Of a stretch of 64,000 nucleotides of DNA, positions 36,963 to 43,327 are shown one piece after another (position 1 is the stretch's first letter; the number at the start of each line of letters is the position of its first letter). A program made the position numbers and the translations under genes. This DNA comes from Sphingorhabdus sp. Alg231-15 (GTDB lineage Bacteria; Pseudomonadota; Alphaproteobacteria; Sphingomonadales; Sphingomonadaceae), in assembly GCF_900149705.1 (NCBI RefSeq), contig NZ_LT703001.1, positions 806,001-870,000 on the forward strand. Reading direction: 5' to 3'. The notes under the pieces are model-generated. The model did not search any database. It worked only from the letters and a program-made list of their open reading frames with translations, and was not told the origin of the DNA.

Positions 36963-37331
36963 TTAGAGAGTATAGGGAACGCGAATACCCGGCATTTCCG
37001 CCGGAAAGTCGCGAGTATTACGTGTGATCAAGATGCGCCCGGTGAGCTGGGCCGATGCGAGAATGACGGCATCCATGGCTTTCAGCCGTCGCCGGTCACT
37101 GCGCAGCAGTGCTGCCCGCCGACCGATTTCCTCATTCACCTCGATAATGTTGAAAAAGGACAGAAAGTCTTCCGCCCGGTCGCCGTCATCCGGCAGCGCG
37201 CGGGTCAATATCTCGACCCAGGTCAGGCGGCTGATATAACGCCGGTCATAGCGTTTCAGCTCGACATTGGCCCGGCCAACATCATTCAGCGCATCAAACA
37301 AGATGTTGCTATCAAAAACCGCTTCGTTCAC
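36963..37331 (-). CDS. vapC: VapC-type PIN-domain toxin
   Basis: This 122-residue PIN-domain ribonuclease is the toxin of a type II toxin-antitoxin pair. The acidic metal-binding residues are in place: Asp7 (VFDSN), Glu40 (TWVEI), Asp87 (KAMDAVILASA) and Asp108 (TRNTRDF). Members typically cut tRNA or rRNA, but the target here is unknown. Its ATG overlaps the stop of the antitoxin gene by 4 bp. It is 18 bp upstream of glmS on the same strand, so read-through into glmS is possible. Confidence 0.9.
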   Translation of the reverse strand: MNEAVFDSNILFDALNDVGRANVELKRYDRRYISRLTWVEILTRALPDDGDRAEDFLSFFNIIEVNEEIGRRAALLRSDRRRLKAMDAVILASAQLTGRILITRNTRDFPAEMPGIRVPYTL

Positions 37332-37660
37332 GAGGCGTCCTTCTTGCGATAGCGCTCGGCCTCACGATCGTCATCGGCATCAAACAGATCGGGAAATTCC
37401 TTACGCACATCCCAGTAATCGGGATCCCAAGGCCGGGTCCATGACGCTCGCTCGCGCCGCTGCCACGCCACCGGATCGCCAACCTCCCGGCGTTCACGCC
37501 ACATGCCGAAATATTTCTCAATCCCCTGCTTCGACGCATCCGCCCGAAACGCCGCCACCGCATCACGCAACAATTGCGCCCGCGACGTGCCCTGTGCCGC
37601 CGCCTGGGCGTCGAGCCACTGGACATCTTCTTCGGATAGATCAGCAAGTATGCGAGTCAT
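37328..37660 (-). CDS. vapB: Ribbon-helix-helix antitoxin (VapB-type)
   Basis: This 110-residue protein has an N-terminal ribbon-helix-helix DNA-binding part (TRILADLSEEDVQWLDAQ to RAQLLRDAVAAF, residues 2-38) and an acidic, aromatic tail (DPDYWDVRKEFPDLFDADDD) that would wrap around the toxin. The tail is longer than in many VapB proteins. It is the first gene of the pair and is preceded by a palindromic TGATATCA operator region that the protein itself probably binds. Confidence 0.85.
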   Translation of the reverse strand: MTRILADLSEEDVQWLDAQAAAQGTSRAQLLRDAVAAFRADASKQGIEKYFGMWRERREVGDPVAWQRRERASWTRPWDPDYWDVRKEFPDLFDADDDREAERYRKKDAS

Positions 37661-37694: not shown

Positions 37695-38258
37695 TTATAA
37701 ATTGCCACGCCGGCCTAGCATTGGTTGTACTTCTCGGGCTAAATCATCCTCAATATAGGTGAGCAAATGCAACTGTTCGTCGTCCAGATCAAATTTATGT
37801 ACAACGATTTCGAACCCTCCCGTCAAGCGACTTGCCCAACACTTCAAGTGTAATGAATATGTACTCTTGGCACCGAATCCGAGATGCCCTTTGAGTCGCT
37901 CAAAAGTATTTCGAGACGTACCAACATAGAAGCAATCGCTGGGACTGTCTGAATTCAACTTGTTTCTTCTGGGATATGCCAGTCCATCTAACTTGGTTTC
38001 TTTAGCGTGATCTATTGCGTCCAGAAACTTCTCGCGACCATCCATTGAATCCAGATGGAATGAGTAAATGGACTGAAAATTTTTCGATAGGTCATCTTTG
38101 AACTTTTTGGAAATAGGATCGAAATCATTAACATTCAACTCTGTGAACTTGAACCTAAACTCCAATCTTTCCAGTGAAGCAATCTGCGACAGATCGTCAG
38201 ACAGCTTAGTGAGATAACGTGCGGCGTTTTTCCCATCAATGCCCTCGCGTTGAGTCAC
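37695..38258 (-). CDS. GIY-YIG-like nuclease-fold protein, overlapping the glmU stop
   Basis: This 187-residue protein has a charged N-terminal half and a C-terminal half with GIY-YIG traits. CFYVGTSRN stands for the GIY...YIG strand pair, followed by an Arg in TFERLKGHLGFG, a segment TYSLHLKCWASRL, an acidic IEDDLAREVQPM (possible metal-binding Glu), and a final GRRGNL. GIY-YIG domains cut DNA, but the match is partial and the motif GIY itself is replaced. The start is GTG 38258, overlapping the glmU TGA as GTGA, so it is probably co-translated with glmU. With the adjacent VapBC pair it forms an accessory insert in the glmU-glmS neighbourhood. Confidence 0.65.
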   Translation of the reverse strand: MTQREGIDGKNAARYLTKLSDDLSQIASLERLEFRFKFTELNVNDFDPISKKFKDDLSKNFQSIYSFHLDSMDGREKFLDAIDHAKETKLDGLAYPRRNKLNSDSPSDCFYVGTSRNTFERLKGHLGFGAKSTYSLHLKCWASRLTGGFEIVVHKFDLDDEQLHLLTYIEDDLAREVQPMLGRRGNL

Positions 38259-40391: not shown

Positions 40392-41411
40392 TCAGCCCTT
40401 GCGCCACTTGGTCCACAAATGGCGGGCCAGCATCAACGGTGGCATGCGCAGCCAATGGGACCGGATATAGAAAGCTTGCCGTGTGAGCTTTCGGGTTTCC
40501 CGCCCCCAACCATCGCGCGCCAATAGGCGCCGGACATACAGATAATCGGTGAATTTCTTTTGGCCCGCACGATATTCTTGGGCTGGCGTGTCATAAAGAC
40601 GAACAGCCAGGCGCAACGCCCGCGCCAGATGCGGCTCCAGCTGATGCAATCTCGCACGCACGCCTAGCTCGGTCCAGAATTCCTCATCCGCATCGGCAAA
40701 TTGCCGGATGAGCCTGTCGATATCCCAAAGATTACGTAATCCCCCGGCCAGATCACCATCTGCAAATAGATGAGCGACACTGTGCAACAGTATGTCCGCA
40801 GGAGCCATCACATAAAGCCCGGATTCCAGCTCGATCGCTGCATCGAGCATTGCTTGAGGATTCGGCGTCGGGTTCGCGGTCAGAGGCAAGGTCGTGTGAT
40901 GGACATCGATCATCCGGTCGCGGTCGCGGTGAATCAACGGTGGCAGCTCATGCATATGCTCACGATAATATTGGTCATCATAAGGGTCCGGCTTAACCCA
41001 CTCCCATCCCGCGTCCAGCAATTCTGCTTCAACAGCGGGCAGCGCATCCCGCGCGACCATGATATCAAGATCACCGATGCTTCGACCAATCCCCGCATCA
41101 AGATCCGCAGCAACATAGGCGGTGCCTTTCATCAGCACGGCTTTGCCGCTTAACGGCGCAAGAGCCCGGCGCGCGCAATCCGCCTCCCAAAGCGCTTGTT
41201 GTCTCGCGAGATCAGTGGCTTGAATCGCATCTTTCAGAATGGGCCTGACTTGCTCCGGCACTGCGATACTCGCCAGACGATGGGCCAGACTGCCGATCAA
41301 CGACTCTGCGCGGGCAATGCTAATCAGATCCGTCCATCCAGCACCGTCAAGCGAGAGAACCGTCTCCGGCTCGCGCAAGGCGTCAACCAATGGCTGGGCA
41401 TTGCGCATCAT
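40392..41411 (-). CDS. Nucleotidyltransferase-fold protein of the HprK-related/PqqD cassette
   Basis: This 339-residue protein of the NTP_transf_5 group has the signature KGTAYVAADLDAGIGRSIGD followed by LDIMV, where G-R-S and the Asp-x-Asp pair (residues about 109-116) form the nucleotide- and metal-binding site. Related nucleotidyltransferases lie beside HprK-like kinases in some lasso-peptide clusters, where they extend phosphate modification. The C-terminal third is helical with conserved His and Arg (HHTTLP, LLHSVAHLFADGDL). The frame opens with GTG 41426. ATG 41411 overlaps the kinase stop as ATGA and is preferred. It is the last gene of a four-gene unit, and its substrate is unknown. 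Confidence 0.82.
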   Translation of the reverse strand: MMRNAQPLVDALREPETVLSLDGAGWTDLISIARAESLIGSLAHRLASIAVPEQVRPILKDAIQATDLARQQALWEADCARRALAPLSGKAVLMKGTAYVAADLDAGIGRSIGDLDIMVARDALPAVEAELLDAGWEWVKPDPYDDQYYREHMHELPPLIHRDRDRMIDVHHTTLPLTANPTPNPQAMLDAAIELESGLYVMAPADILLHSVAHLFADGDLAGGLRNLWDIDRLIRQFADADEEFWTELGVRARLHQLEPHLARALRLAVRLYDTPAQEYRAGQKKFTDYLYVRRLLARDGWGRETRKLTRQAFYIRSHWLRMPPLMLARHLWTKWRKG

Positions 41412-42268
41412 GGGAGCTTGCTCCACAGACTATCGATGAGTTCTTCGGCTTGGTCACTCGATTGATAATCCATGGCCTTGGTTGGAACGGTATCAACAAA
41501 GTGGGTCAGCGCCTGAAAGCCTGTTTCTCCGAGAGCGACATAGTTGGTTGATGCCTGGGTTAACCGCACAAATATTTCGCTCTTACCCATATCGCGCAGA
41601 GCAGGATCATGTCCAAAGCGCGGAAACAGAAGCAAAGCAGGTTTGGCCGTGTCCGCCGTCCGCTTCACCGCATCCAGCGGTGGGATAATGTGACGGATAT
41701 CCCCTTTCGGCGTCCCTTTCATCAGGGGGCCGAAGCGATTGTCCGGCACAACCGCTTGCATGGTGGCAATTGCCTCGTTTTTGAGGCTGATCAGTCGCGG
41801 AAAGCTATGCACCATGCCGGTGTCCGGATTAAGCAACGCAAATTCATCCCCCATGAATCGCCAGCCTTTTTCCGCCAGCATGGCAGAAAGTGTAGACTTT
41901 CCCGAACCGGACAGGCCAGTCATCAGCAATGCCCTACCATCCTTCTCGACACTGCTGGCATGCAGCAAAAGATGCCGTCGCCAGCCCAGTGCCATTTGCA
42001 AGTTCATGCCCATTTCCGCAGCCAGCAGACTTTGATCAAGTGGCAAGGGAGCAGCATCAGGGAGCCAAAAATCGCCGGAAATATGAACCGAAGGTCGGAA
42101 ATAGCGCCGCCAGGGCTTTTCAGGCTCCAACCGCACGGTGAAATCTGCGTAACCGTCCTGCGAAGCTGGGTAGTCCTGATAGAGAGCTGCCAACTGATCG
42201 AGCGGCCGCCGCCAGCTCGAGACCAGCCGATATCGTGTCGGCCCGACAGTCAGATAAAGCTGATGCAT
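41408..42268 (-). CDS. HprK-related kinase A
   Basis: This 286-residue P-loop kinase is related to the catalytic domain of HPr serine kinase/phosphatase. The Walker A motif GLSGSGKST is at residues 118-126 and MGDEFALL (139-146) corresponds to the metal-binding acidic motif. The N-terminal 100 residues form a beta-rich domain (YRLVSSWRRPLDQL, DFTVRLEPEKP) without match to HprK. There is no HPr or phosphotransferase gene nearby, so the target is probably a peptide or protein, perhaps the Tat-exported product of the first gene. ATG 42268 is preferred to the frame opening at 42313. It lies 14 bp after the PqqD-like gene and overlaps the nucleotidyltransferase gene. Confidence 0.88.
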   Translation of the reverse strand: MHQLYLTVGPTRYRLVSSWRRPLDQLAALYQDYPASQDGYADFTVRLEPEKPWRRYFRPSVHISGDFWLPDAAPLPLDQSLLAAEMGMNLQMALGWRRHLLLHASSVEKDGRALLMTGLSGSGKSTLSAMLAEKGWRFMGDEFALLNPDTGMVHSFPRLISLKNEAIATMQAVVPDNRFGPLMKGTPKGDIRHIIPPLDAVKRTADTAKPALLLFPRFGHDPALRDMGKSEIFVRLTQASTNYVALGETGFQALTHFVDTVPTKAMDYQSSDQAEELIDSLWSKLP

Positions 42269-42282
42269 GCGCGCCACCGAGC

Positions 42283-42561
42283 CTAAACCTTGTCCACAAG
42301 ACCAAGCGAACACAGTTCGACAAGCCTTGCCAGCACGATATCAGCGGTGTCACCACTATCCTCCAGATCATAGCTATCGGACAGTCTGCCTGCGATATCG
42401 ACGGCCGTCAGGGAATGTTCTCCCATAACGGCTAATATCGCCGGCACGGGATCAGCTACGATATGAGTGATCCCTGACGATTTCTGAAAAACCAGCGTCA
42501 TACTGTCCAGCGGATGCTGGATCAGCCCTTCAGAGGCTGCGGCGCGATAAAGCTGGCTCAT
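42283..42561 (-). CDS. PqqD-like peptide chaperone of the HprK-related system
   Basis: This 92-residue protein fits the PqqD-like winged-helix fold (RiPP recognition element) that hands a precursor peptide to modifying enzymes. Typical features are a beta-strand pair (MTLVFQKSSGITHIVADP), a first helix (VPAILAVMGEH), HSLTAVDIAGRLSDSY, and the C-terminal helix (IVLARLVELCSLGLV). NCBI naming calls such genes HPr-rel-A system PqqD family. It is the second gene of the unit, 100 bp after the Tat-exported protein and 14 bp before the kinase. Which peptide it binds is unknown. Confidence 0.82.
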   Translation of the reverse strand: MSQLYRAAASEGLIQHPLDSMTLVFQKSSGITHIVADPVPAILAVMGEHSLTAVDIAGRLSDSYDLEDSGDTADIVLARLVELCSLGLVDKV

Positions 42562-42662
42562 TGGCGGTTACACTATCCCTGATCACGGCAATTCGTTCGA
42601 AAAAGCCATTAGCATGAATATGTTAATAAGCATTGGCTTTGAAGCCAAAAATCAGCGCAAAA

Positions 42663-43091
42663 CTATCGCGGCATCTGCAGAGATGCGTAGCAGGTAAAGC
42701 CGCTTTGCCCGGACTGGAGACGCCGAATATAGTTCACATAGGCTTTGGACTGATCGTAAGATGTGCCGGGAAGAGACCGGCCATTCATCGCCCGCTTCAC
42801 TTCTTCCCCGGTAAAATTCCGGCCTGCAGGCGGAAAAGCTCCAGGCGTGTCGGGAGATACAATTTTTCCGTCCGGACCAATATATCCGCCAGCAGCGTGA
42901 TTTCCGGGAACCGGAATTTCGCAGTTTAGCACCGAACCAGCGGTCTGCGCCAAAGCAGGCTTGATGCTGACGACCGCAGAAGCCGTCACAGCCCCCATCA
43001 TCAGCGCACGGCGGCGGGTGACAATCGCAGCATTCTCAGAATCATCAGTTGGTGCTGATGATCTACCATTCTGATTTAGACTGTCTGTCAT
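42663..43091 (-). CDS. Tat-exported small protein, possible substrate of the HprK-related system
   Basis: This 142-residue protein is not in a family I recognise. A twin-arginine signal is visible: TRRRALMM followed by a hydrophobic stretch and a cut after KPALA (about residue 48). The mature 90-odd residues contain two cysteines (LNCEIPVP and GFTCYASL) that may pair, a Gly/Pro-rich segment (YIGPDGKIVSPDTPGAFPPA) and a helical part (GEEVKRAMNGRS). It heads the unit with the PqqD-like, kinase and nucleotidyltransferase genes, and its small size and secretion make it a natural modification substrate. That is inference from order alone. Confidence 0.68.
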   Translation of the reverse strand: MTDSLNQNGRSSAPTDDSENAAIVTRRRALMMGAVTASAVVSIKPALAQTAGSVLNCEIPVPGNHAAGGYIGPDGKIVSPDTPGAFPPAGRNFTGEEVKRAMNGRSLPGTSYDQSKAYVNYIRRLQSGQSGFTCYASLQMPR

Positions 43092-43327
43092 AACGTAATA
43101 ATTTCCTCTGAATGTCGCCCTTAGAGCGAAAATCGTTTAATTGCGAGTAAACAGTCGCGCGTGCAGACTGTCGTCCATAATCGGGACAAACCGGCCAAAT
43201 TTCTTAACGGCACAAAGACGGTGAACTGATCAAAACGATATAATCGGGTACAAAACAGACATTGCCATTGCTGTTTTTGCGAAAACCCGCCTAAACATAG
43301 CCACCGAATTTCATCGCAACGGCCAAT

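Follow-up and report, generated by a model that had tools for sequence, protein, structure and literature searches.

A Tat-exported small protein as the regular partner, and likely target, of the HPr-rel-A kinase system in Sphingorhabdus and other Proteobacteria

The stretch of 64,000 nucleotides from Sphingorhabdus sp. Alg231-15 that was analysed in the present study (contig NZ_LT703001.1, positions 806,001 to 870,000; here called the window) carries on its minus strand, at 40392-43091, four open reading frames (ORFs), which encode in this order a small protein with a twin-arginine translocation (Tat) signal, a PqqD-like protein, an HprK-related kinase and a nucleotidyltransferase. The kinase and the PqqD-like protein are members of the HPr-rel-A system (TIGR04352 and TIGR04353), whose NCBIfam names state no function for either of them. 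We find that this system regularly includes a Tat protein as its fourth member, and that this protein is likely to be the missing target of its enzymes.

The genes are separated by 101, 14 and -4 bp. An earlier interpretation made from the letters alone (the sequence-only reading) had described four tightly spaced genes on the same strand, which holds with a first gap of 101 instead of 100 bp, and the motifs it had named (GLSGSGKST, MGDEFALL and GRSIGDLDIMV) are present in the translations. The PqqD-like protein matches PqqD_rel_X (TIGR04353) with 46.4 bits at a cut-off of 35, and the kinase, which it adjoins with the gap of 14 bp, matches HprK_rel_A (TIGR04352) with 247.6 bits (cut-off 200); both being above the curated cut-offs and adjacent, the pair counts as an HPr-rel-A system. 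The nucleotidyltransferase belongs to PF14907, NTP_transf_5 (153.9 bits, cut-off 31.2). Family scans assigned the window Tat protein to no Pfam or NCBIfam family, and the Tat partner has no model of either collection in ten proteins scanned. Twin arginine, hydrophobic stretch and AxA are all present in its signal region (RRRALMMGAVTASAVVSIKPALA), which is also covered by the signal profile described below. Among 60 genomes searched, all 31 of the same genus (the own genome included) have both a kinase and a Tat match, and thus the four-gene unit is not a chance arrangement. In two of these same-genus genomes the Tat frame looks broken, by a split into two separate matches in G007 (C45:376700-377091) and by one in-frame TAG in G008 (C377:6714-7097). 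The coordinates of all the features are collected in the table.

Table. Features of the four-gene unit and of its upstream region (positions in the window)
Feature	Position	Strand	Remarks
Conserved element TTGTCCCG-A-TTATGGACG / TTGTCCCGATTATGGACG	43172..43189	-	ahead of the Tat gene; from an alignment of 26 same-genus loci
Tat-exported small protein, predicted substrate	42663..43091	-	142 aa; without Pfam/NCBIfam family
Landmarks of the Tat protein			RRR residues 26-28; ALA-Q cleavage region 46-49; first Cys 57; C-terminal motif 133-138
Cys57 codon	42921..42923	-	directly follows the signal; may pair with Cys134 in a disulfide
Motif T-C-Y-A-S-L, residues 133-138	42678..42695	-	codons; Ser137 is the predicted phosphorylation site
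PqqD-like protein, predicted leader-binding fold (RiPP recognition element)	42283..42561	-	92 aa; TIGR04353
HprK-related kinase A	41408..42268	-	286 aa; TIGR04352
NTP_transf_5 nucleotidyltransferase	40392..41411	-	PF14907
Nucleotidyltransferase motif GRSIGDLDIMV	41055-41087	-	
Nucleotidyltransferase motif MIDVHH	40896-40913	-	holds the third Asp

By BLAST the Tat protein is found in 34 of the 60 genomes (own included) and the kinase above its cut-off in 45, and on these counts the Tat protein seemed to be bound to its lineage. The reading of the loci changed that view, as other families of the order have a different small Tat-like ORF in the same position (two of them in G038). A scan of genome contigs with a kinase alignment gave at least 549 confirmed relatives, the best 80 of which form the named loci; these come mostly from Beta- and Gammaproteobacteria and are not an even sample. 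The comparison comprised 129 loci from Alpha-, Beta- and Gammaproteobacteria after the removal of identical kinases. A simple Tat regular expression was tried and given up, because its strict form (81 of the 129 loci) was too strict and a looser one unspecific, the latter matching 110 loci, with five ORFs that by eye were wrong (L084, L089, L095, L106 and L113), and also 189 of 5500 shuffled proteins. A signal profile took its place; the 82 distinct segments used for it come from 105 of the 129 loci, and it matches all 105 again. The consensus of the signal region is RRR-[FL]-[LA]-K-x-G ... P-V-V-L-[TS]-L-x-S-x-P-A-x-A.

With this profile a Tat partner of about 84-310 residues is found at 123/129 kinase loci, in 111 cases in the upstream stretch and in 12 more at loci with an overlapping PqqD start (10) or with tandem copies after the trio of enzyme and PqqD genes (2). 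Among 6542 further ORFs of the kinase loci the profile matches only those same partners and extra copies. The loci left out of profile building, 18/24 of which match, are cleaner evidence than the full count. A held-out set of 63 new loci from the same taxonomic order (23 new ones of 30 loci, and 40 regions, in genomes related to those of the profile) gave a Tat protein at 59, and two more were identified by eye (L205, where the contig end cuts the signal, and L226), which the profile misses even though the motif is present. At L113 (6011-7540) and L132 (5689-7107) two tandem predicted substrate genes follow the nucleotidyltransferase instead of preceding the PqqD gene, and L096 (3651-7958) has two kinases of the HPr-rel-A family with the predicted substrate gene between the trio and the second kinase. 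The Tat-kinase association survives these changes of gene order.

The presence of both genes was also compared in 298 genomes of the window's family, taken in one draw, by means of a profile of window-type Tat proteins with 11 rows. The window-type protein occurs in 92/100 genomes with the kinase and in 0/198 without it (Fisher p 4e-68, not corrected for descent); 10 of the 92 had supplied profile rows, and the count is 82/90 when they are set aside. An overlapping set of genomes gave 23/25 with and 0/20 without the kinase, 5 of the 23 being profile rows. The association is also kept when the genes are apart. In the genus g251 the Tat gene stands next to the kinase in G407 and G435, at 164, 280 and 685 kb from it in G355, G399 and G438, respectively, and on another contig in G416, and the unlinked copies that were read (G399, G438 and G355) keep signal, Cys and motif. 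Since the Tat gene is retained after its separation from the kinase, hitch-hiking alone is an insufficient explanation. On a kinase tree of 87 rows the distribution of substrate types can be explained by 4 changes, versus 25.5 with shuffled labels, as is expected from a long partnership and equally from linkage. The sequence-only reading had made its case depend on the Tat gene accompanying the trio in other genomes, and had proposed a modification system with the exported protein as a possible substrate; the loci, the genomes and the retention of unlinked copies all support this proposal, in which the modification itself is the inferred part. Of 296 genomes sampled from the window's order, 126 have a kinase that exceeds the cut-off. 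One kinase locus (L127) lies on a contig labelled Pirellulaceae (Planctomycetota), its kinase nested among those of Comamonadaceae, and is perhaps mis-binned.

The analysis of the Tat proteins, typed partly by eye, points to serines as the fixed feature of otherwise variable sequences. Type I comprises the proteins of the window, of other Alphaproteobacteria and of L128 and L129, these two placed by eye; length and middle sequence vary widely and are often rich in Asp or Gly. The motif [STN]-C-[YWFLVI]-x-S-[LIVAYGM] occurs in 20/21 non-redundant type I proteins (shuffled mean 0.12), a count which, because of the grouping by eye, weighs less than that of the held-out window-type proteins, where [ST]-C-x-x-S-hydrophobic is present in 59/59 (shuffled mean 0.79) and the stricter form in 53/59. 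In the relatives the distance from the start of the motif to the last residue is 7 to 53 residues. In type II, the form of Beta- and Gammaproteobacteria, two serines after the signal are identical in 58/58 proteins and preceded by the first Cys in 56 (C-x(3)-S-[GA]-x-x-S in the reference row). The model of one mature type II protein (51 rows) has a confident fold, with a mean predicted local distance difference test (pLDDT) of 90.9, and both serines lie within the first 20 residues, an arm modelled with the lowest confidence (pLDDT 72 and 63). The modelled fold thus does not seem to hold these serines, which would suit a modification site. No solved relative of this fold was found by profile, Foldseek or VIA-align, an absence that is no proof of a new fold. 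A third type (n=6; L104, L143, L150, L154, L155 and L161) is found in Accumulibacter, Methylococcaceae and Chromatium, with kinases that form one clade; it lacks the motifs of types I and II. Two candidate rules were rejected: an even number of cysteines is confined to type I (21/21, and 58/59 held-out proteins, but only 37/59 of type II), and C-x-x-S alone is found in 32/65 proteins outside type I against a shuffled mean of 21.6.

The PqqD-like protein of the window was modelled with AlphaFold2 together with 65 relatives (pLDDT 91.6). Its 13 best matches in the PDB are proteins with a RiPP recognition element (RRE), the leader-binding domain of ribosomally synthesised and post-translationally modified peptides (RiPPs), and include a leader-bound lasso B1 protein, TruD, a sactipeptide enzyme, PqqD and ThcOx (Foldseek E 0.005-0.06, probability about 1). 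The best of them, concerning the fold only, is lasso B1 5v1v (probability 1.00, E 4.6e-3), and the predicted fold also matches 4bs9, 5sxy and 6jx3. In the window kinase the invariant residues are His103, Lys124-Ser125-Thr126, Asp141 and Lys163 (the conservation alignment over the 129 loci numbers the kinase from a start 15 codons upstream). The HprK-like active-site His, Lys, Ser, Thr and Asp are conserved in 129/129 kinases, and the residue after the Asp is Glu in 128/129; for lasso-type kinases the catalytic set is His-Lys-Asp-Asp. The nucleotidyltransferase is encoded at 121/129 loci, the remaining eight having short flanks or a contig end, and its Lys-Gly, Arg and three Asp are present in all 120 rows with a residue there.

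The kinase shares with HPr kinase/phosphorylase (HprK) a P-loop core with His, Walker A and Asp, and its profile matches the HprK structures 1ko7 (E 2.6e-5) and 1jb1 over the P-loop region. However, the matched part spans no more than about positions 83-151 of the 278 in the profile, the family has Asp-Glu where 1ko7 has Asp-Asp, its conserved SLKN and TPKG motifs fall outside the match, and the kinase does not stand beside HPr. The statement of the sequence-only reading that there is no HPr gene is right for the surroundings of the unit, but the same genome encodes HPr about 98 kb away, outside the window.

There is also a likeness in gene content to the phosphorylated lasso peptides (paeninodin with PadeK, ThcoK, SyanK, and pseudomycoidin with PsmK/PsmN), which are reported to combine an RRE-type B1 protein with an HprK-like kinase and a nucleotidyltransferase that act on a Ser at the C terminus of the precursor. 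According to the review PMC9266682, the PadeK and ThcoK kinases put one or more phosphates on the C-terminal Ser of the lasso peptide, and PsmN is needed for the addition of one or two hexoses to the phosphorylated Ser, either on its own or following nucleotidylation, with the help of a host enzyme. For rumen lasso clusters, a survey (PMC7533575) reports HPr kinase in about 58% of its genomes, PqqD in about 46% and a nucleotidyltransferase, uncharacterised, in about 30%. In the literature found, tailoring by such enzymes is described for lasso peptides; the words 'kinase' and 'nucleotidyltransferase' are absent from the main text of two RRE surveys, and no paper on the HPr-rel-A system, or on combinations of PqqD, HprK and a Tat signal, was found among the open-licence literature. 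Unlike the lasso pathway, the genome has no B2 leader peptidase (PF13471, 0 matches in the whole genome), in agreement with the sequence-only reading, and the modified Ser of lasso peptides is the last residue, whereas Ser137 of the window protein stands five residues before the end of a Tat-exported protein. By eye, no asparagine-synthetase-like cyclase stood out among the ORFs between 36000 and 48000, a reading made without a dedicated search. The layout is RiPP-like in that RRE, modifying enzymes and putative precursor gene stand together.

Taking the gene set, the predicted fold class, the active-site residues, the motifs and the co-occurrence as observed, we propose as the favoured reading, which we hold to be somewhat better than evenly supported, that the four genes encode a single exported protein together with the machinery for its maturation: this protein would be presented by the PqqD-like protein, phosphorylated by the kinase, extended by the nucleotidyltransferase and exported through Tat. 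The chemistry of these steps is based on the lasso-peptide precedent and their order is inferred. The PqqD-like protein, with its predicted RRE fold, would bind the newly made Tat protein while this is still in the cytoplasm, most probably via the conserved signal region, in place of the classical leader that RRE and PqqD proteins bind. The kinase would then phosphorylate Ser137 within [ST]-C-x-x-S-hydrophobic in the window type; in the beta/gamma form its target would be the invariant arm SGxxSG, which directly follows the signal. Onto the phosphoserine the NTP_transf_5 enzyme would transfer either a nucleotide or, by a direct or an indirect route, a sugar, as is reported for PsmN in the lasso pathway. 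Finally, the modified protein would leave through Tat, the signal would be cut and the two conserved cysteines would form a disulfide in the periplasm. The parts of this proposal differ in strength. That the Tat protein is the substrate is quite probable; that the conserved Ser is the site of modification we judge about evenly balanced, and the same holds, by analogy with PsmN, for an action of the nucleotidyltransferase on phosphoserine, and the binding of the signal by the PqqD-like protein is plausible, if a little short of an even chance.

Several observations weigh against this proposal. The generic Tat models TIGR01409 and PF10518 do not match the window protein, and among nine relatives they gave one and two matches, respectively, all below the cut-off and confined to two of the nine. 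The model of the PqqD-like protein has no PDB match under E 0.001, and from rank 14 other winged-helix proteins appear. Six of the 129 kinase loci are without a partner: three have short flanks (L126, L133 and L139), L084 has a kinase below the cut-off, L078 lies beside a polysaccharide-export-like gene and has no Tat gene, and L136 consists of kinase and nucleotidyltransferase alone, with neither Tat nor PqqD gene. At two of the 63 held-out loci (L165 and L184) no Tat gene is adjacent; in the genome of the latter (G491) one lies about 4 kb from the kinase, with other genes between it and the PqqD gene. Eight of the 100 kinase genomes have no window-type match, among them G603, which has a divergent Tat protein (L222), and G373, with none beside the kinase (L165). 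The genome counts are not independent, owing to shared descent, and the kinase is uncommon across the class (8/289 genomes, own order included). A serine motif shared by the third substrate type is unsupported (2/6 versus 1.7 by shuffling).

A first alternative is that the trio modifies another molecule (a polysaccharide precursor, HPr or a small metabolite), the Tat protein being kept with it as accessory or sensor. It would agree with the relation of the kinase profile to the HPr kinase structures, with the HPr encoded in the genome, with the position of some loci beside exopolysaccharide-export-like genes, that of L078 without a Tat gene, and with L136. We consider it unlikely, since the best PDB folds of the PqqD-like protein are peptide-binding RREs, the fixed serines in otherwise free-running proteins would need another explanation, and the Tat gene persists where it is no longer linked to the kinase, the window-type protein being absent from every kinase-less genome of the comparison. 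A second alternative takes the PqqD-like protein as a Tat proofreading chaperone, with kinase and nucleotidyltransferase building or attaching a nucleotide-type cofactor at Cys or Ser, the exported protein being a small cofactor carrier. The Tat route suits proteins that are folded or loaded in the cytoplasm, the beta/gamma partner is a confident domain with a flexible SGxxSG arm, and a conserved Cys stands beside the conserved Ser, all of which fits such a carrier. However, in about 4 kb around the 80 named loci none of the 22 largest ORF clusters is widespread apart from those of the four genes (judged by eye, with no family scan), and the type I stretch from the first Cys to the motif measures 25 to 218 residues, unlike a cofactor fold; we consider a carrier unlikely as well. 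Near the same 80 loci we read S1C-like protease genes at about 24, polysaccharide- or exopolysaccharide-export-like genes at 11 and a gene that looks like a flavin adenine dinucleotide oxidase at 4. That the unit is a degenerate relic of a lasso-peptide pathway with cyclase and protease lost, as the same three enzyme types in lasso clusters (PMC7533575 and PMC9266682) and lasso B1 as best fold match might suggest, is very improbable, given conserved active sites, a four-gene set that recurs across Proteobacteria, a Tat protein of such length as the substrate, the genome-wide absence of B2, and scores of 37-46 bits to TIGR04352 for the three HprK-like kinases beside asparagine-synthetase-like genes in G024, versus about 250 here.

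A lasso-like cluster is in fact present in that genome, which is of the same genus (L243:1492-10913); by reading, it contains an asparagine-synthetase-like gene, two HprK-like kinases, sulfotransferase-like and oxygenase-like genes and a small ORF ending in Ser. In three more same-genus genomes (L244, L245 and L246), exbD-like genes have in their vicinity both an HprK-like kinase and a sulfotransferase-like gene, with asparagine-synthetase-like genes read in L244 and L245.

Returning to maturation of the Tat protein by the trio, a more far-reaching form of it, which we put forward tentatively, is that these proteins, folded or disordered and about 84-310 residues long, constitute a new class of ribosomally made, RRE-guided exported proteins in which the Tat signal doubles as the leader, a fixed Ser is phosphorylated and then nucleotidylated or glycosyl-phosphorylated, and the PqqD-like protein frees the signal only after modification, coupling export to completion. 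Here the beta/gamma form would represent a fold without a detected solved relative. If maturation by the trio is borne out, the tailoring by kinase and nucleotidyltransferase that is known from a few lasso peptides would be in broader use, on exported proteins, and Tat signals could be a target of leader-binding domains. With the fourth gene and a fixed serine identified, the function of the HPr-rel-A system becomes testable.

Ahead of the Tat gene, the conserved element at 43172-43189 has its sole exact copy in the genome and may be part of the operon promoter or an operator. A regulon of this element was considered and rejected, as 17 sites with up to 3 mismatches were found and the reversed control gave 15; the site in the window is the one exact match. 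To the right of the unit follow, divergently, a phoR-like gene (below the cut-off) and genes which by their sequence read as phosphate-uptake genes; to the left lies a convergent gene close to phosphoglycolate phosphatases (below the cut-off). Farther left, a VapBC-like toxin-antitoxin pair (36963-37660, minus strand) matches its families under the curated cut-offs, and between it and glmU an ORF of 187 aa without a family (37695-38258) gives a weak GIY-YIG match (E 0.11).

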